Assembly (NCBI RefSeq): GCF_900155395.1
Contig: NZ_LT699725.1
Coordinates: forward strand, 88,071-152,070
Origin: Merdibacter massiliensis
GTDB taxonomy: Bacteria > Bacillota_I > Bacilli_A > Erysipelotrichales > Erysipelotrichaceae
Reading direction: 5' to 3'
DNA length: 64,000 nucleotides
The position numbers and the translations under genes are program-made. Numbering within the stretch: position 1 is the first letter of the stretch; the number at the start of each line of letters is the position of its first letter. The notes under the pieces were generated by a model. It had not been told where the DNA came from and did not search any database. It saw nothing but the letters and a program-made list of their open reading frames with translations. Positions 9,532 through 41,954 of the stretch are shown piece after piece.

Positions 9532-11456
9532 GTGTGCCGGGCATGGCACGAATTCAGTTGGAGATAAGCCAACCACAGGTAGTTACCGCCAAGTGTAGCG
9601 AACCACAAGTCGTTAACAGTGATGTTGAGGATGGAGGAAGTGGTGTAGCGATTCTTTCGAGCGTACGAACAGAAACCGGATATAAGGCTAAATGGTGGAT
9701 AAGGTTGCATATCAAACCGAAGTCCAAAAGGTAAACGTAAAACCAAGACAGTAAATCAGGACGTTGTGAAAGAAACAGGATTCGTGAATTACCCCGGGAG
9801 GTCTTGTGGACGATGAAATCCAATATCTTTAAAATCAGTGATGGTAACATCGGTCGAAAAAGGTTTACCACAAGAAGTCAGCTGAGGTCGTAGTAGGTAG
9901 AGACATCTATACCCAAGGACCTAATGTTTATATGGTGCAGCTCACCATGCGCAATGTTTGGATAGTTCGAAATCGAGGATAGTTCCATAAGTGGGAATCG
10001 TAATCCCATGGGAATGAAGGTAGAGGGAATGGTTCCAAATATATTTACAAAAGGAAGGAGAAGCAACAACATGAAATTGATCGAAGTGATCTTAAGAGAT
10101 GAAAATCTCGAAGAGGCAATCAAAAGAGTCAAAAGTAATAAAGGTGTACCTGGCATTGATAAGATGACAGTGGATGAAATTGACGAGTATTTCAAGGCCT
10201 ATAGGGAACAGATAAAGAAACAGATACTGGCGAAGAAATACAAACCTCAACCTGTAAGAAGAGTCTATATTCCTAAATCAAATGGAAAGAAAAGACCCCT
10301 GGGAATTCCAACAGTAGTAGACAGGGTCATCCAACAGGCGATAGCTCAAGTGTTATCAGATATTTATGATAGTAAATTCAGTGAGAATAGTTTTGGATTT
10401 CGACCAAACAGGAGTGCACATGATGCCATCCTGCGAACACTGGACTACTTAAATGAAGGATACGAATGGGTCATCGATTTAGATATAGAAGCATACTTCG
10501 ATACAGTAAATCACGATAAATTAATTTCAATACTTAGAGAGCATGTGAATGATTCGACAACATTGCATTTGATTCGTAAATTCCTGCAGGCAGGAATCAT
10601 GGAAAATGGTTTTGTCAAAGCAAATGCCATAGGAATGCCACAAGGAGGACCTCTAAGTCCAATTCTATCAAATATTTACTTAGATAAATTTGATAAGGAA
10701 CTGGAAGAAAGGGGACTATGCTTTGTGAGATATGCAGATGACAGTAATATCTTCGTTAAAAGCGAGATGGCAGCAAATCGAGTGATGAAGTCCGTCACAT
10801 CATGGCTGGAGAGAAAATTATTCCTAAAAGTCAGTGCAACCAAAACAAAGGTAGTACGACCAACGAATAGTAATTTTCTAGGTTTTACATACTGGAAGAA
10901 CTCATCAAAATGGGAATGTATTCCTACAAAGAAGAGTAAGAAAAGCCTGTATGATAAATGTCGAAAGGAACTCATTCGAAAGAAATGTGTAGCACAGACC
11001 AACGCTAAAACATTCACCAGGACAAACCAAATCGTCAAAGGATGGATAAACTACTTTCGAATCGGAAGGATGAAGAACTTCATCGATGAATTTGGACAAT
11101 GGTTAAGGCACAAAATAAGGGTCATCATCTTAAAACAGTGGAAAGTACCACCGAGGATATATAAAAATCTACAAAAGTTGAATGAGAAATTGCCATATCA
11201 CTTCAGTGATGAACAACTCTACTCGGTAGCGAATACAAGGCTTGGCCTATATAAACAAGCAAATGGGAATGTAATTAATTTCTTACTTAATGCGGATATT
11301 CTAGCCATAAGAAAAGAGGAAAGACCTGGATTGGTCAATCCTCTAGCATACTATCTAAGATAGGTTGTATTAACATATAAATGTAGCGCCGTATACGAGA
11401 CCCGTACGTACGGTGCAATGAGAGGGGCGAAGATTAATTTCTTCCCTCTACTCTAT
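9532..11456 (+). mobile_element. Group II intron, probably class C, inserted behind the prs terminator
   Basis: The 5' end GTGTG (9532-9536) matches the group II consensus GUGYG. About 540 nt of presumed structured domains I-III precede the reverse transcriptase gene, which sits in domain IV. Domain V lies at 11385-11416: catalytic AGC at 11385-11387, with arms GCGCCGTA and TACGGTGC around a GAGA-type turn. Domain VI follows (11420-11456) with GAGAGGGG/CCCTCTACTC and a candidate branch-point A near the 3' end. I place the 3' boundary at ...CTCTAT (11456); it may be off by one or two bases. Class C is inferred from insertion behind a terminator hairpin and the lack of an endonuclease domain. 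Confidence 0.85.
10071..11363 (+). CDS. ltrA: Group II intron reverse transcriptase / maturase
   Basis: A 430-residue multifunctional intron protein that aids splicing and target-primed reverse transcription. RT motifs appear in order: KSNKGVPGID (RT1), RPLGIPTVVDRVIQQ (RT2), SFGFRPNRSAHDA (RT3), DLDIEAYFDTVNH (RT4), GMPQGGPLSPILSNIYL (RT5) and the catalytic FVRYADDSNIF (YADD, RT6). The maturase X region follows (NYFRIGRMKNFIDEF). It ends without a C-terminal HNH endonuclease, as class C proteins do. The frame is open back to 10008, but the ATG at 10071 has a GGAGAAG ribosome site. Confidence 0.93.
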   Translation: MKLIEVILRDENLEEAIKRVKSNKGVPGIDKMTVDEIDEYFKAYREQIKKQILAKKYKPQPVRRVYIPKSNGKKRPLGIPTVVDRVIQQAIAQVLSDIYDSKFSENSFGFRPNRSAHDAILRTLDYLNEGYEWVIDLDIEAYFDTVNHDKLISILREHVNDSTTLHLIRKFLQAGIMENGFVKANAIGMPQGGPLSPILSNIYLDKFDKELEERGLCFVRYADDSNIFVKSEMAANRVMKSVTSWLERKLFLKVSATKTKVVRPTNSNFLGFTYWKNSSKWECIPTKKSKKSLYDKCRKELIRKKCVAQTNAKTFTRTNQIVKGWINYFRIGRMKNFIDEFGQWLRHKIRVIILKQWKVPPRIYKNLQKLNEKLPYHFSDEQLYSVANTRLGLYKQANGNVINFLLNADILAIRKEERPGLVNPLAYYLR

Positions 11457-13152: not shown

Positions 13153-14560
13153 TTATTGCTTTTTCCACTCGAATGTGTTTCTTTTTGATCGTTTGGGTTT
13201 GAAAGGCTTGCAAGACATGTTCGCCTTTTCCATTTAAGATTTCTACATACGAGTTGTGTTCCTGTACCTTTATGACTCCGATATCTTCACTTGTCACACC
13301 ATCGATGGCGCATATTGCGCCAACAAGATCTCCAGGGCGGATCTTTTTGCTTTTGCCGGCAAAAATACAAAGCTTCATGACATCTTGATAGATGAGATCT
13401 TCTTTTTGTACTTTTGGTTTAATAGGGCTCCGCAGCTGATCAAACGAAAATTGTCTGTTCAGCTCAAGGGATTGAATGGAAAAATACGGATAGATTTCTT
13501 GCAGCTGTTGAAAAATTGACAAAGAGGATGGTCCTACCAAAGAAACAGCTAATCCTGCTTTTTTCATACGTGCGCTTCGTCCTACACGATGAATATAAGA
13601 TTGTGCTGTAAGCGGGAAGTCATAGTTGATAATGAGGGAAATATCATCAATATCTAGACCGCGGGCGGCTACATTGCTTGCAATCAATATACGTGTCTGA
13701 CCATCACGAAAAGCCTGCAAAGAAGCAAAACGATCTTCTTGTGTCTGTTTGCCATGCAATGTAGAGATAAGCAGATCCAGTTTGGACAGCTGCATGCTCA
13801 GCTGTTGTGCGGCTTCGATCGTATTCATGAATATGATACAGCGTGTAATGGAAAAAGATTGCAGTATGTCTAGTAAACCAGAAAACTTTTCTTCATCTTT
13901 GATTGCATAAAACAACTGTGTTAATTGTCTGGGAAATATATCGGCATCTTCTTGGATCCAGTTGGCGGATGTAATATGCTTTTGGATAAACTGTCGAATT
14001 TCATCTGGAAATGTAGCTGAGAAACAGGCGGTCTGTTTCTGCTTAGGCAAATAAGAGATGATTTTTTCTAAGATAGGACGAAAACCTAAATGAAACATTT
14101 CATCTGCTTCATCGCTGATCAACATAGAAATATTATGGAGATCTACTGTTTTTTCTTGTATATGTTGGTAAAGTCTTCCAGGAGTAGCGACAATCACATG
14201 TGTGCGCTGTTTCATATCTTCTTTTTGATCATGAAACGATTGTTTGCCAACTAGCATTTGATGATGTGTGTGCAGATACAAACCGACTGCGTCCAGTGTC
14301 CGTTTTACTTGTTGTGCTAATTCTCTGGTTGGAACAAGGATCAATGCCTGCGGAAAAAAAGAATCAAAAGAAATACACTGTAAGATGGGGATAACATAAG
14401 CCAGTGTCTTCCCGCTGCCAGTCATTGATTGAACGACCATATCTTCTTTTTCTAGCATCTTAGGAATTACTTTTTCTTGTATGGGTGTCAATGTTTCATA
14501 GTGCATCGAAGATAATGCTTTTTGTAAAGGCGCGGAAAGTTTCAACTGTTTAAATTCCAT
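13148..14560 (-). CDS. dbpA: DEAD-box ATP-dependent RNA helicase, DbpA/YxiN-like
   Basis: A 470-residue RNA helicase. The RecA1 domain has the Q motif (LTPIQEKVIP), Walker A MTGSGKT (about 44), PTRELAQ, DEAD and SAT. The RecA2 domain has ARGLDID and HRVGRSAR. The last 80 residues match the DbpA/CsdA RNA-binding domain (PGDLVGAICAIDGV and KKHIRVEKA), which in YxiN/DbpA recognises the 23S rRNA hairpin 92. The role in large-subunit assembly is inferred from that family. Single gene with its own ribosome site. Confidence 0.9.
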   Translation of the reverse strand: MEFKQLKLSAPLQKALSSMHYETLTPIQEKVIPKMLEKEDMVVQSMTGSGKTLAYVIPILQCISFDSFFPQALILVPTRELAQQVKRTLDAVGLYLHTHHQMLVGKQSFHDQKEDMKQRTHVIVATPGRLYQHIQEKTVDLHNISMLISDEADEMFHLGFRPILEKIISYLPKQKQTACFSATFPDEIRQFIQKHITSANWIQEDADIFPRQLTQLFYAIKDEEKFSGLLDILQSFSITRCIIFMNTIEAAQQLSMQLSKLDLLISTLHGKQTQEDRFASLQAFRDGQTRILIASNVAARGLDIDDISLIINYDFPLTAQSYIHRVGRSARMKKAGLAVSLVGPSSLSIFQQLQEIYPYFSIQSLELNRQFSFDQLRSPIKPKVQKEDLIYQDVMKLCIFAGKSKKIRPGDLVGAICAIDGVTSEDIGVIKVQEHNSYVEILNGKGEHVLQAFQTQTIKKKHIRVEKAIK

Positions 14561-18065: not shown

Positions 18066-18081
18066 GTACATGAACAAAAAA

Positions 18082-18188
18082 CTTCAGGGTAGGGTGCAAT
18101 TCCCAATCGGCGGTAAAACTCCGCGAGCCGTTATTGGCAGGAACCGGTGTAATTCCGGTAGCGACAGTCATAGTCTGGATGGAAGAAG
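18082..18188 (+). ncRNA. FMN riboswitch (RFN element)
   Basis: Classic RFN aptamer. P1 is CTTC/GAAG at its ends. The conserved AGGGTAGGGTGCAATTCCC block is followed by CGGCGG...CCGCGAGCCG, ACCGGTGTAATTCCGG and GACAGTCATAGTCTGGATGG. It binds flavin mononucleotide and here controls the riboflavin transporter ribU downstream, through the terminator at 18220-18250. Confidence 0.97.
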
Positions 18189-18219
18189 ATTTTTGAATTT
18201 CTTTTTATCGTAGTATCCT

Positions 18220-18286: not shown

Positions 18287-18901
18287 ATGTCAGCAAACAC
18301 AATGATCTCAACGAAAACATCTCGTGTACAGTGGATTGCCAAAGTATCCGTTCTTTCTGCAATTGCTTTTATTCTCATGATGTTTGAAATTCCATTGCCA
18401 TTTGCACCATCCTTTTATAAATTAGGATTTGATGAAGTAATCGTTTTACTGGGCGGTTTTTCTTTAGGTCCGCTTGCAGGTGCCGCAATCGAAACGATGA
18501 AGATCATCCTAAATTTATTGTTTCAAGGCAGTGATACTGCTTTTGTAGGCGAAATTTCAAATTTACTGGTAGGATTGTCTCTTGTACTTCCAAGCGCATT
18601 TTTCTATAAAAATCATAAAACGATGAAAGGTGCTTTTATCTCTATGGGGGTTGGTGTCCTTTCTATGGCTTTCGTAGGATGTCTAGCAAACTACTTTATT
18701 GCATTACCGGCATATTCGTATTTTTATGGTCTTCAGATGTCGGTGATCGTAGGAATGGGAAGCGCAATCTTTCCTTTGGTAAAGGATACATTTACTTTTG
18801 TCATTTTTATGACATTGCCGTTCAATATCGTAAAAGGCCTCGTTGTTTCGTTTGTAACGGCTCTGCTCTATAAACGTGTATCGCCATTGTTGCATCGATA
18901 A
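18287..18901 (+). CDS. ribU: Riboflavin ECF transporter substrate-binding subunit RibU
   Basis: A 204-residue six-helix S component of an energy-coupling factor transporter; it binds riboflavin and needs the shared EcfA/EcfA'/EcfT module encoded elsewhere. Hydrophobic helices run throughout. The N-terminal stretch (AKVSVLSAIAFILMMFEIPLP) and FAPSFYKLGFDEV match RibU. The assignment is secured by the FMN riboswitch that leads the transcript. Confidence 0.95.
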   Translation: MSANTMISTKTSRVQWIAKVSVLSAIAFILMMFEIPLPFAPSFYKLGFDEVIVLLGGFSLGPLAGAAIETMKIILNLLFQGSDTAFVGEISNLLVGLSLVLPSAFFYKNHKTMKGAFISMGVGVLSMAFVGCLANYFIALPAYSYFYGLQMSVIVGMGSAIFPLVKDTFTFVIFMTLPFNIVKGLVVSFVTALLYKRVSPLLHR

Positions 18902-18984: not shown

Positions 18985-21170
<2,186 letters not shown>

Positions 21171-21308: not shown

Positions 21309-21410
21309 GTACACCTTTTTCCGTGAAAATATAAAGGCAGATAACAAATTACGTAATGAAGTATCTTCGGTTCTATTTGCTTTTTTATAAATGGTTTTAT
21401 AATGAGCGAA
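21309..21410. repeat. Dispersed intergenic repeat, copy 1
   Basis: From GTACACC to GAGCGAA this matches 36728-36838 nearly base for base (core AATATAAAGG.AGATAACAAA through GTATCTTC and TAAATGGTTTTATAAT). It contains an ATTACGTAAT palindrome flanked by AGATA/TATCT arms. Both copies lie in gene-free DNA 15 kb apart. Confidence 0.88.
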
Positions 21411-21545
21411 TGTGACAAAAGAGTTAAAGAAAGGGAGTTAGTGAAGTGTGAAAACTATGTAAATCAGTTAAGCAGTTGATGGAATAAAAAATACGAATAG
21501 AATATAAATGAGGATAGGAAACAATTTTCTACTTCAAATATTATC

Positions 21546-21665
21546 CGCTAGCTGGTATGCGGGATATAAATGGCTAGCGCTTAAATGTTAACCGTTAATT
21601 CGTGTACGGGATATAAAAGACGAATGGTTAAAGAATGCTTCGCCGATAAAGTGGAGCATTTTTCA
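21546..21665 (+). ncRNA. Three consecutive hairpins ending in a terminator; candidate small RNA
   Basis: Hairpin 1: CGCTAGC (21546-21552) with GCTAGCG (21573-21579). Hairpin 2: TTAACC (21588-21593) with GGTTAA (21626-21631), enclosing ATTCGT (21598-21603) with ACGAAT (21620-21625). Both loops carry the same GGGATATAAA. Hairpin 3: AATGCTTC (21634-21641) with GGAGCATT (21653-21660), then T5. No known family is recognised. Confidence 0.4.
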
Positions 21666-21921
21666 TAGGTGATCAGAATAAATATAGACATAGGATATTT
21701 GTATTTTATTGATCATAAATTCCTTGGGTTGGTAGACAATAATATATTGAAAGAATAAAACTTCTGATCAAAAAGGATACCATAACAGACCGGCAATTAA
21801 GGTTTCTGAAGAAAAGGTAAGCTACGGATGAAGCAAATTCAATAAGATAAACATTCAAACTAGGTGGTTTGCTTCGGGATGTAGTTGCTTTTTCAGTTTC
21901 TGCACTTGCTGAAATAGGACG

Positions 21922-24256: not shown

Positions 24257-25327
24257 TTAAGCCGTCTCTTTTTCAAAATAACGTTTTCCAAGAATATAGG
24301 TTACGACAAAAGAAACTGCAACAGCCAAACCCATTACAAATAACATACCGAATAAGTTTCCCATAGAGCCATCCGGATTGATATATGCAGCAAATGAAAT
24401 GAATCCTGGAGTTGACACCACATATTGTGTCCATCCAAATGCACCAGCAATTGCTCCGCCAAGGCCACCACCGATCATAGCAGCAATCAACGGATAACGT
24501 TTTGTAAATAATACACCATAAACACCTGGTTCAGTAATGCCACATAAAGCTGTAACACCAGCACCAACAGCGATTGATTTTTCTTCCGCTTTTTTCGCAA
24601 TTAATGCAACAGCTAGACAAGCCCCACCTACAGCCACATTTGCTGGTGCCATACCAGTACAGATCAATGGATCCGAACCAACTTCTGCTAACAATGTAAA
24701 TAAAATTGGATATGTTGCATTGTTCATGCCAAAGAATACTAACCAAGGTGTCGTTGCGCCAATGATCGCAACGGCAATAATCGGAGCACTTTGATAGATT
24801 GCATAAACACCATTTGACAGCCATGTACCAACCGTATTACCGATAGGCCCCAAGAACAACAAAGTAACAGGAACAGTTACCAGCATCGTAATTAAAGGAA
24901 CAAAGATTGTTCGTAATGTAACTGGCATATGCTTCTGTAAGAATCTATAAATCACACTCATGAACAATACACCCAAAATAACAGGGAATACCGTTGAGTT
25001 ATAAGCAATCGGCTGAACATCTAACCCTAAGAAATTTAAGGTAATCGGCTCTGCGATACCGCTGAAATTATTTGTAAAGAACAGCAATACAGCTGCTAAG
25101 AAGGCTCCCAGATATCCGTTGGATTTCAAACGCTGAGCAGATGAAAAGCCAATAAAGATAGGTAAGAACCAAAAAGTAGCCTGATTTAGACAATAAAATA
25201 CTTGATATACGCCTGAATCCGTTCCTACTCCAGCAAAAGTTGTTAACAGGGTTAATACGGCTCCAGTCAAACCTCCTGCGACCAATACTGGAATTACTGG
25301 TGAGAAAGTACCGCCAATAAAGCTCAT
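24257..25327 (-). CDS. PTS beta-glucoside EIIC, severed from its EIIB by an IS element
   Basis: The membrane channel domain of a bgl-type EIIBC, 356 residues from the first ATG. The frame is open upstream to the IS edge and reads NVLEAIMSFIGGTFSPVIPV, the usual beginning of the EIIC domain, so the whole domain is retained. The conserved GITEPGVYGV (substrate site) is intact. The internal ATG at 25327 lacks a clear ribosome site, so expression after the IS insertion is doubtful. It is the 3' part of a gene whose 5' part lies at 26771-27115. Confidence 0.85.
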   Translation of the reverse strand: MSFIGGTFSPVIPVLVAGGLTGAVLTLLTTFAGVGTDSGVYQVFYCLNQATFWFLPIFIGFSSAQRLKSNGYLGAFLAAVLLFFTNNFSGIAEPITLNFLGLDVQPIAYNSTVFPVILGVLFMSVIYRFLQKHMPVTLRTIFVPLITMLVTVPVTLLFLGPIGNTVGTWLSNGVYAIYQSAPIIAVAIIGATTPWLVFFGMNNATYPILFTLLAEVGSDPLICTGMAPANVAVGGACLAVALIAKKAEEKSIAVGAGVTALCGITEPGVYGVLFTKRYPLIAAMIGGGLGGAIAGAFGWTQYVVSTPGFISFAAYINPDGSMGNLFGMLFVMGLAVAVSFVVTYILGKRYFEKETA

Positions 25328-25364: not shown

Positions 25365-26777
25365 TGTGTAAGTAATATTCGACAGGTTTTGACCCGTGAA
25401 AGTCGAATGGTGTCACCTGACCTTTGTCCTCGTCCCTTAAGCCGGTATGATCATTGAGTTGATTTCATGCCGGCTTTTTTTCGTTTTTTATTACATATCA
25501 TTCTTCACTGCTGTCCATGATCCTGAGCTGATTGATGATCAGGTCCCAGTTCCTGCACCTCTGTGTCCATCTGCTGCTCAGATTCTGAATAGCCAGATAC
25601 AGCATCTTCCTCAAGCTGTCATCATTAGGGAATACATTCTTTGTCTTTGTCACTTTTCTGAATTGTCGGTTTAGTCCTTCGATCGCATTTGTCGTATAGA
25701 TGATCTTTCGGATTTCCACGGGATAATCGAAATACGTGCTTAGTATGTCCCAATTTTCTTCCCAGCTATGCACCGCTGTTGGATATTGTTTCTCCCATTT
25801 TTCACTGAATGTCGCCAGCTGGCTCATGGCCTGTTCTTCTGTATTTGCCTGATATACCTGCTTGAGATCTTTCATAAATTCCTTGATGTGTTTATAGCTC
25901 ACAAAACGTGTGCTGCTGCGGATCTGGTGAATGATGCATCTCTGTATCCTTGCTTTGGGATAAACAGCCGTGATTGCTTCTTTGAAGCCGGTAAGGCCGT
26001 CTACGCAGAACAAAGAAACGTTCTGTACCCCTCTGCTTTTCAGCTCATTCAATACGCCCATCCAGTATTTGGCCGATTCGCTGGCACCTACCCATAAGCC
26101 AAGGACCTCTTTGATTCCGTCCTCATTGATTCCCAGGATCACATAGGCAGCCTTTGTCACCACTTGATGATCTTCACGGATCTTGTAATGGATGGCATCC
26201 ATGAATACGAAGGGATAGCAGGCTTCTAAAGGGCGATCCTGCCATTGTTTCACCTCAGGAAGGATACGCTCACTGATCTTGCTTACAAGTCCTTCCGATA
26301 TCTCCACGTCATATAGACCTTTGATCTGCTCCTTGATCTCACGGGTAGACATGCCAGCAGCATAAAGGGACAGGATACGTTCCTCGATACCATCTGCATT
26401 GCGCTGATACTTTGAGATGATCTTTGGTTCGAATTCTCCGTTGCGGTCTCTGGGGACATTGACCTCCACTTCACCCAGCTGTGTTTTCATCGTCCTTTTA
26501 ACGGAACCGTTGCGATAATTCTTTTTAGCATCATCATTTCTTCTTTCCGCATGTTCATAACCGAGATGCTGATCCATTTCAGCTTGTAATGTTTGTTCGA
26601 GGACATCGGCGAACATGCTCTTCATGCAGTCCATGATATCCTTGGTAGATGTAAACTTTTGTTCATTGATCAGATCCTTGATCTGTTGTGTCGAAATAAA
26701 AGATGTGTTCATGTCGAATTCCTCCTGATAAGATCGTTATTCATCTTCATTCTTACCTGTTTTCAACTATTTACACA
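25365..26777 (-). mobile_element. IS256-family insertion sequence
   Basis: An approximately 1.41-kb element with imperfect terminal inverted repeats, each beginning TGTGTAA and sharing ACAGGT at the same distance (left end 25365, right end 26777), around a Mutator-type transposase gene. It splits the EIIBC gene between its EIIB and EIIC domains. I see no 8-9-bp target duplication, so the exact ends or a post-insertion change remain open. Confidence 0.8.
25498..26712 (-). CDS. IS256-family (Mutator-type) transposase
   Basis: A 404-residue DDE transposase. Catalytic residues fall in FMDAIHYKIRE (first Asp, about 170), LFCVDGLTGF (second Asp, about 236) and TTNAIEGLNRQFRK (Glu, about 343), with the family C/D-x2-H signature in RCIIHQIR (about 261). 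The N-terminal region holds the DNA-binding helices. The gene is intact, with AGGAGGAATTCGAC before the ATG, so the element may be active. Confidence 0.94.
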   Translation of the reverse strand: MNTSFISTQQIKDLINEQKFTSTKDIMDCMKSMFADVLEQTLQAEMDQHLGYEHAERRNDDAKKNYRNGSVKRTMKTQLGEVEVNVPRDRNGEFEPKIISKYQRNADGIEERILSLYAAGMSTREIKEQIKGLYDVEISEGLVSKISERILPEVKQWQDRPLEACYPFVFMDAIHYKIREDHQVVTKAAYVILGINEDGIKEVLGLWVGASESAKYWMGVLNELKSRGVQNVSLFCVDGLTGFKEAITAVYPKARIQRCIIHQIRSSTRFVSYKHIKEFMKDLKQVYQANTEEQAMSQLATFSEKWEKQYPTAVHSWEENWDILSTYFDYPVEIRKIIYTTNAIEGLNRQFRKVTKTKNVFPNDDSLRKMLYLAIQNLSSRWTQRCRNWDLIINQLRIMDSSEE

Positions 26778-27115
26778 TCTTTTTCTACATTCTCGACATT
26801 CCCTTTCATTTTGCTGTCCTGTTTCAATGCTTCTGCATCTTCAACAGAACCTCCAGCTTTGATTCCTTCGATCTTGATGATTTCTTCATATGCACTAGGT
26901 ACATCTTGACCAATCACAAATTGATATTCACCATTTTGTACAATAACATTGATCACTCCTGGAATCGTTTTTGCCTTTTCCATATCCAGTTTGGAACCAT
27001 CGCTTAATTGCAGACGTAATCTTGTCATACAGTGACTGACATTCAATATATTTGTTGCACCGCCACTTACTTCAACAATTGATTTGGCGATATTTGCATA
27101 ATCTTTTTTTGCCAT
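26771..27115 (-). CDS. PTS beta-glucoside EIIB domain, 5' part of an IS-split EIIBC gene
   Basis: A 114-residue product. Residues 1-90 are a complete glucose/bgl-type EIIB whose phosphorylated Cys is in NVSHCMTRLRL (about residue 28). The rest is the start of the interdomain linker. The stop codon is supplied by the IS256 end (GAT GTG TAA), so the protein is a truncated EIIBC. Since EIIB and EIIC work as separate polypeptides in many systems, this half may still function. AAGGAGAGAG precedes the ATG; 23 nt separate it from the upstream GH1 stop. Confidence 0.87.
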   Translation of the reverse strand: MAKKDYANIAKSIVEVSGGATNILNVSHCMTRLRLQLSDGSKLDMEKAKTIPGVINVIVQNGEYQFVIGQDVPSAYEEIIKIEGIKAGGSVEDAEALKQDSKMKGNVENVEKDV

Positions 27116-36403: not shown

Positions 36404-36727
36404 GTTATTCATAGAAATTTGAATAGGGAACTTCAGTGTTAAGATATAACTGTAGCACTGCTATTGTTAGTTATGTTCTTGGGAAAAAGAAAGCATTTTT
36501 GATATAGAACATGTTACCAGTTACAGATAAATATTATATATATGTTGATAAGAATATAGATTGATTTATTGAATTGTCAACGAAAGTAAAAAAATAGTTC
36601 ACATGCGAAAGCAAACAGATACTTGTCATTATATAGGGGCCAAAGAATTAAGCTAATGTTTACAGATGTAGAAAAATACTTAATAAGACAAACATTTGTG
36701 ATTAGGCACATGAATCTTAGTTGTGCA

Positions 36728-36838
36728 AAGGTACACCATTTTCGCTTGAAAATATAAAGGAAGATAACAAATTACGTAATGAAGTATCTTCCGTTCTATT
36801 TGCATTTTTATAAATGGTTTTATAATAAATAAGCGAAA
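36728..36838. repeat. Dispersed intergenic repeat, copy 2
   Basis: Nearly identical to 21309-21410. In this copy the arms GGAAGATA and TATCTTCC are perfectly complementary around the ATTACGTAAT palindrome, so it is the better preserved copy. Confidence 0.88.
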
Positions 36839-41579: not shown

Positions 41580-41954
41580 AAGTATGCACCCCCTTTACTG
41601 TGTGTCTTATGGAAGCAGACAGACGGCTTTGGCAAGCTCCACTGGCATTTCAGCCATTCCCATTCCTGTGGGCAGAACCGCACCATGCGGATGTATCATT
41701 ATTCTGTGAATACAGGTCGTGGCAAAGCGACTTTTCCAACGGTCACTCTCGGATCACTGCATGGGTCGCTCGCTTCCCCTTATGGAAAAGGTCGTGGCGT
41801 ACAGTCCCCGTGGCTCGCTGTATCACAAACGTATCTGTCTGCTTTATTCACTTGTCAAAGAACAGTGGCGAAAGCCATAGGCTCTCATGTGTAAAAGCAG
41901 AGGGCAGGACAGGAAAGAGGGGATTTCAACAAATCATGCCCTGCCATAATTGCT
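41580..41954. other. Spacer between xis and orf8, no convincing gene
   Basis: 375 bp in the position of the regulatory spacer of Tn916 elements. Open frames on the plus strand have Trp/Cys/Arg-rich, composition-driven translations and no ribosome site, so I do not call them. Confidence 0.5.

Follow-up and report, generated by a model that had tools for sequence, protein, structure and literature searches.

A two-pseudoknot RNA beside the remains of a cptN toxin gene in Merdibacter massiliensis, most likely an orphan CptI antitoxin

The window analyzed here is a 64,000-nt stretch of the Merdibacter massiliensis genome (contig NZ_LT699725.1, positions 88,071 to 152,070), and all positions given below are positions within it. 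A reading frame of 641 amino acids at 19245-21170 appears to encode a lysyl-tRNA synthetase with a C-terminal tRNA-binding extension; between 21171 and 22257, neither strand has an open reading frame of 60 or more amino acids. Other RNA features in the window include parts of a group II intron RNA (9613-11456, Rfam), an FMN riboswitch (18076-18194) upstream of a membrane protein gene (18287-18901) that probably encodes a riboflavin transporter, and, on the reverse strand at 41639-41702, a pemK RNA motif (Rfam), whose name suggests a second RNA element linked to a toxin.

Behind the synthetase gene, the decamer GGGATATAAA occurs in two exact copies (21561-21570 and 21608-21617) enclosed by the segments CGCTAGC...GCTAGCG and TTAACC..ATTCGT/ACGAAT..GGTTAA. 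The first-pass annotation, made from the letters alone, had read these as two adjacent hairpins with an identical 10-nt loop, followed by a terminator in gene-free DNA, had proposed an RNA of no family known to it that presents a recognition motif twice, and had suggested looking for conservation and stem covariation in relatives. The letters and stems are as it gave them, and a strong 13-pair stem followed by a T run, with a shorter stem at the same place in relatives, does come after the pair (Table 1), although this terminator is absent from the output of a consensus scan. The decamer by itself is not rare, a third exact copy lying directly ahead of an ATG at 14560 on the reverse strand, and the minimum free energy of 21540-21670 has a z-score of only -2.2, with equally good folds in 2 of 200 shuffles. 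What exceeds chance is the architecture: none of 1000 dinucleotide shuffles of 21521-21640 contained two pseudoknots with a score of at least 28, while 34 contained one at that score and 8 contained two at a looser score of at least 24.

Each of the two structured pieces is best drawn as an H-type pseudoknot rather than as a simple hairpin. The first repeat pairs UCCGC with GCGGG in stem 1 (S1) and GCUGGU with GCUAGC in stem 2 (S2), with UA as loop 1 (L1) and AUAUAAAUG as loop 2 (L2); the second pairs CCGU with ACGG and AUUCGU with ACGAAU, again with UA as L1, and has GAUAUAAAAG as L2. The repeats are about 47 nt long, as is the distance between their S1 arms. Because of this structure, the supposed identical loop is instead the 3' strand of S1 together with the A-rich L2. 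The originally drawn CGCTAGC/GCTAGCG stem competes with the covarying S2 (GCTGGT/GCTAGC), and TTAACC/GGTTAA occupies the 5' strand of S1 and is missing from four aligned relatives.

Table 1. Positions of the RNA element, the toxin gene remnants and flanking features in the window.
Feature	Position	Strand	Remarks
Candidate promoter TTGATG-16-TAGAAT	21476..21503	+	weak, 9/12
Direct repeat copy 1, upstream of cptI	21309..21403	+	94% identical to 36731-36826
Complete two-repeat cptI antitoxin element	21535..21634	+	models R2, R1
CptI repeat 1 (pseudoknot)	21535..21580	+	all proposed pairs standard, some G-U
Repeat 1 parts	S1 21544-21548/21559-21563, L1 21549-21550, S2 21551-21556/21573-21578, L2 21564-21572		L2 is AUAUAAAUG
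CptI repeat 2 (pseudoknot)	21581..21627	+	
Repeat 2 parts	S1 21592-21595/21606-21609, L1 21596-21597, S2 21598-21603/21620-21625, L2 21610-21619		L2 is GAUAUAAAAG
Rho-independent terminator separating the antitoxin from the former toxin gene	21631..21664	+	MFE fold
Fossil 5' part of cptN	21684..21804	+	tblastn of intact CptN, DNA alignment, translation
Fossil 3' part of cptN	36433..36682	+	residues ~70-155, in-frame stops and indels
Direct repeat copy 2, just past the fossil cptN 3' end	36731..36826	+	

The family of the element was recognized from its relatives. In a DNA search of 97 genomes that included the window's own, 21533-21632 matched four genomes at 81-91% identity, all from a different family within the same order, with all matches beginning at 21533; only one of the four (G096) contains the exact double motif. 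Behind the element in G096 and G088 come a terminator, a GGAG sequence resembling a ribosome-binding site, and an open reading frame (161 and 157 amino acids, respectively). The encoded proteins score above the cut-off of the NCBIfam CptIN model NF047359 (E 2.3e-53 and 1.1e-48), and the G096 protein matches the CptN of PDB 4RMO (E 5.1e-15). Matches of the same toxin relatives to other type III models are weak (Pfam ToxN 1e-4 to 3e-4, below the cut-off; PADLOC AbiQ 0.003-0.004; TenpIN 0.01-0.03). A model, R2, built from 28 sequences without the window, its three closest relatives, or the stem-1 pairs, finds 21535-21634 with 56.4 bits (E 2.9e-11; the runner-up in the window has E 2.1), and model R1, whose training set includes the window, scores the same segment at 88.3 bits. 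Rfam reports nothing in 21400-21760 at E<=10, and Rfam 15 does not recognize CptI in the window or in the four related loci L003-L006, where a permissive search yields only a sub-threshold Streptococcus sRNA match on the opposite strand of L003. A CsrA-sequestering RNA, suggested by GGGA in the loops, had been considered and was dropped once homologues were found in front of CptN.

Two in-register pseudoknots are the usual arrangement upstream of CptN genes. Among 105 CptN loci (80 from genome contigs, the best of 453 there, and 25 from viral contigs, some of them nearly identical), 83 have such a pair at a spacing of 44-53 nt, 17 have one pseudoknot, and 5 have none (one of these with only 80 bases upstream), compared with two-pseudoknot counts of 0, 0, 1, 1, and 0 in five rounds of shuffling the same stretches; some surplus matches in this search are terminators. 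In an alignment of 32 rows, of which 28 represent loci chosen for having pseudoknots, 92.4% of cells are paired over the 20 proposed pairs, 16 of which have changed on both sides, and covariation is seen in all four helices; the covariation score is not attained in any of 500 shuffles, and 28-45% of cells stay paired when the partner strand is slid. More weight should be given to an unselected alignment for stem 1, since those 28 rows were picked for their pseudoknots. It consists of 35 matches in 34 loci found by R2, which has no stem-1 pairs, and none is an R2 training row, although the set contains one seemingly spurious match (L218) and some partial ones. Here, 97.8% of stem-1 cells are paired, all eight pairs have changed on both sides, and none of 500 shuffles attains even one of five measures, including a count of further pair types that had been reached on the 32-row alignment by 73 of 500 shuffles, and by all 500 for stem 1 alone.

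Conservation and covariation in relatives are thus both found, and the observation in the first-pass annotation is confirmed while its interpretation is partly supported: a structured RNA showing the same protein-recognition element twice was right, but the RNA belongs to a known family. Repeat length, pseudoknot architecture, and the match to an independently built model all agree with CptI, the antitoxin of type III toxin-antitoxin systems, and a terminator separates the element from the toxin position, as in a CptIN module, although an intact cptN reading frame does not follow directly. Taking homology, covariation, and the adjacent toxin fossil together, the element is almost certainly a CptI antitoxin RNA.

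The partner gene adjoins it in ruins. The DNA is gene-free in the sense that it lacks longer reading frames, but part of a decayed CptN toxin gene lies in it: residues 2-23 are recognizable at 21684-21749 and, after a frameshift, residues 26-42 at 21754-21804 in a different frame. The ATG start codon seen in relatives is gone, with an in-frame GTG a few codons upstream. The 3' remnant lies 14.6 kb away, beyond beta-glucoside PTS genes and an IS256-type transposase (names inferred from sequence); the transposase gene, at 25498-26712, sits between two apparent pieces of a beta-glucoside PTS permease gene at 26771-27115 and 24257-25327. With its start codon lost, its frame shifted, stops acquired, and its halves apart, the cptN of the window is, judged from its sequence, dead. 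Around cptI, both cptN remnants, and the intervening sugar-transport genes stand the two copies of a 96-bp direct repeat, which matches nowhere else in the genome at E<=0.01. In a comparison with two congeners, the LysR-ChrA side of the region was common to G001 and the cptI region was not; neither congener has a cptI match in assemblies that are 85-86% complete.

To place this locus, model R1 was run on two overlapping sets, one of 315 genomes from the order and one of 395 sampled from the class. At E<=1e-4 per genome, it found 35 distinct cptI loci (13 from the order set and 22 more from the class set), counts that are lower bounds as R1 missed the real cptI of G042, whose repeats and cptN are visible; G455 (1.1e-4) and G641 (5.8e-4) fell short of the threshold and were left out. 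Judged by a CptN profile on the 900 nt downstream, or up to the contig end, the toxin is intact at 16 loci, damaged at 7, doubtful at 1 (G503a, a weak match with E 0.08), and not recognizable at 11. The damaged loci are the window, G083 (cut after about 28 residues), G049, G094, G639b, and two loci of G621, a genome that may read TGA as tryptophan but whose loci G621a and G621b also contain TAA stops. No toxin is recognizable at G077, G253, G241, G535, G591a, G591b, G648a, G648b, G362, G509, and G639c. Under looser limits than those of the 105-locus search, two pseudoknots are present at 15 of 16 loci with an intact toxin, 5 of 8 with a damaged or doubtful one, and 9 of 11 without one (all but G241 and G362), the one first chosen in G077 having a non-canonical pairing. 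Nine of the 35 loci are therefore toxin-less with two pseudoknots in register; three of these (G591a, G591b, G648a) terminate a different operon, and six are plain orphans (G077, G253, G535, G509, G639c, and G648b, where the contig extends just 348 nt behind cptI). A degenerate cptN lies elsewhere in the G077 genome and an intact one elsewhere in that of G639; 8 of 15 such genomes checked whole, including G535, G253, and G509, have no CptN at E<=1e-3. The orphan nearest to that of the window, G083, has a damaged second repeat and no detectable pseudoknot pair. In G241 (L194) and G094 (L193), CptI is a single hybrid repeat that joins the start of repeat 1 to the end of repeat 2, the product that recombination between the repeats would give. 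In G586, a second cptI match (L206 2371-2475) and a second CptN-like reading frame stand in tandem behind a first cptIN locus. The element in the window is thus a member of a known RNA family in an unusual but recurrent state, an orphan CptI with a fossil toxin.

Our preferred explanation, to which we assign a probability of roughly 0.88, is that the two tandem H-type pseudoknots and terminator belonged to a chromosomal CptIN module whose cptN has died, leaving what is most likely a stand-alone antitoxin. Whether this copy is being kept for a present-day function is a separate matter, for which the odds appear slightly worse than even. At columns invariant among relatives, the RNA has changed at 6 of 79, compared with 21 of 78 in the 5' toxin fossil and 55 of 188 in the 3' fossil (the latter taking in a few columns beyond the stop codon), or three to four times less often (Fisher P 0.0014 and 5.5e-5, respectively). 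The six changes fall in a spacer, the linkers (three), one L2 position, and one stem base that keeps a G-U pair; in our reading of the alignment, none breaks a pair, so that the proposed stems and loop 2 are kept. This slow change speaks against a neutral relic, in which the same CptI RNA, neither expressed nor selected, would have decayed less than the toxin merely for want of elapsed time, as does the retention of two pseudoknots at several other toxin-less loci, together with promoters matching 10-11 of 12 positions in three of nine orphan loci tested (G535, G509, G253; the other six, G083 included, reach 8-9). The relic is nevertheless about as probable as functional retention, because no promoter above chance was found at the window cptI: the best candidate (9/12) is equalled in 416 of 1000 shuffles of the region, whereas promoters of at least 10/12 occur at 67 of 82 CptN loci versus 6 of 82 single shuffles. 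It also gains from the codon-position bias that persists in the toxin fossil, where differences from G096 at positions 1-3 are 0.38, 0.19, and 0.53, compared with 0.25, 0.12, and 0.51 in G094. Much of the divergence must then predate inactivation, so that the toxin may have died only a short time ago, and the P values overstate the strength of the rate test. The RNA is the slower partner even between G096 and G088, where the toxin is intact (97% identity for CptI versus 91% for the toxin). Erosion of the RNA elsewhere, to one repeat in G241 and G094 and through the second repeat of G083, fits the relic as well. In the window, repeat 2 has lost the outer stem-1 pair of G096, leaving four pairs versus five, and its 3' junction reads GGUUAAAG versus GUACAAAU in G096.

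The remaining explanations are far less probable. A protein-binding or regulatory RNA of some other kind, with no relation to toxin-antitoxin systems, was the reading of the first-pass annotation; the repeated recognition element and the lack of an Rfam match would suit it, but with homologous RNAs preceding intact CptN genes and the remains of cptN directly following the element, we consider it very improbable. Slightly more remote is the idea that the antitoxin is functional and has its CptN partner at another locus of this genome. Genomes with several cptI loci and one intact CptN do exist (G639, G503), but the sole match to the CptN family model in this genome, which is 99.85% complete, is the 3' fossil itself (36448-36633), and no other CptN was found by that search, which contradicts a partner in trans within the limits of the assembly and the family model. 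Chance hairpins or a mobile repeat might be suspected from the commonness of the decamer and the direct repeat flanking the region; this is the least credible account, already contradicted by the shuffling result for the double pseudoknot, by the covariation, and by the fact that the whole element matches only once in the genome.

Each repeat would be expected to retain binding to a CptN RNase from the subgroup of G096 and G088. In CptI of Eubacterium rectale, L2 makes an A-minor twist, and antitoxicity is lost upon the A29U change or when U30 is deleted (PMC4627078). By positional mapping, the window L2 AUAUAAAUG seems to fit the published anchors A27, A29, U30, A31, A33, and G35, and the essential residues A29 and U30 appear to be retained. 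The orphan could most likely still neutralize an incoming CptN. Were a mobile element to enter with a matching toxin, CptN would be expected to cleave the orphan CptI precursor at the A-rich repeat junctions and to become trapped in a protein-RNA complex, which would spare the cell addiction or toxicity. Searches with blastn found no matching DNA in plasmid or phage collections, and two exact patterns found no copies of the window RNA in viral contigs, so that no incoming element with a matching toxin is known. CptI-CptN pairs are highly specific in experiments (PMC4627078), and the range of rescue may therefore be narrow.

The three toxin-less loci that end other operons lead to a further arrangement. 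In four genomes of a single Bacilli genus, out of 55 examined in its family, CptI repeats follow an operon for a protein of about 198 amino acids and small proteins (loci L203 in G591, L204 in G648, L232 in G671, and L231 in G668), in arrays of two to five repeats. The longest, up to five tandem repeats counted by eye, is in G668, where the contig start is too close to show the ~198-aa gene. Four of the five near-full-length copies of the protein lie beside CptI repeats (the exception is G591:C2), and no CptN is found at these loci. The protein has no significant Pfam match, nor does the G648 copy have an NCBIfam match; one of the small proteins weakly resembles VbhA (E 0.049, below the cut-off). 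We know of no type III layout in which RNA repeats stand behind such proteins without CptN, and the operon and its array are possibly a new toxin-RNA antitoxin arrangement.

We tentatively suggest, while holding it less probable than its negation, that stand-alone CptI RNAs form a recurrent class of chromosomal toxin-less antitoxins, kept by selection and conferring immunity to CptN from mobile elements; in this view, other operons have also adopted such arrays, as with the 2-5 repeats behind the ~198-aa protein and the small proteins of the Bacilli genus above, perhaps as a toxin-RNA antitoxin system not yet described. If selection does keep such RNAs, the anti-addiction hypothesis could be tested directly with an RNA of about 100 nt and a single toxin gene. 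The failure of Rfam 15 at five loci indicates that such RNAs can escape routine annotation, and the models built here detect them.

The orphan-antitoxin literature that we found, as far as its consulted parts extend, mainly concerns protein (type II) systems, and in the parts of the literature searched (including parts of PMC5086642 and PMC8860590, with the 2012 survey of type III loci outside this scope) no paper describing a class of type III RNA antitoxins without toxins came up. In the chromosomal type II system ccdEch, according to passages of PMC2654758, the chromosomal antitoxin protects against a homologous plasmid toxin and so acts in anti-addiction; there the antitoxin is a protein within a toxin-antitoxin system, whereas here it is an RNA beside a dead toxin and protection is hypothetical. 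Passages of PMC5086642 describe pseudo-ToxI decoys in escape mutants of phage TE, in which toxin-free arrays of antitoxin RNA repeats hold a type III toxin in check, but these serve phage counter-defense, unlike a chromosomal RNA beside its own dead toxin. The ToxIN/AbiQ and TenpIN families share the layout of an RNA repeat antitoxin upstream of an RNase toxin, but the toxin relatives here score far better as CptIN. CptIN of E. rectale (PDB 4RMO; PMC4627078) differs from the window locus in having a functional toxin, which is destroyed here, and an L1 of 1 nt rather than 2 nt (UA); the two are alike in their two tandem repeats (45 nt there and about 47 nt here), in the match of a close relative's toxin to the 4RMO CptN, and in H-type pseudoknots with a short L1, a long A-rich L2, and a terminator before the toxin position.
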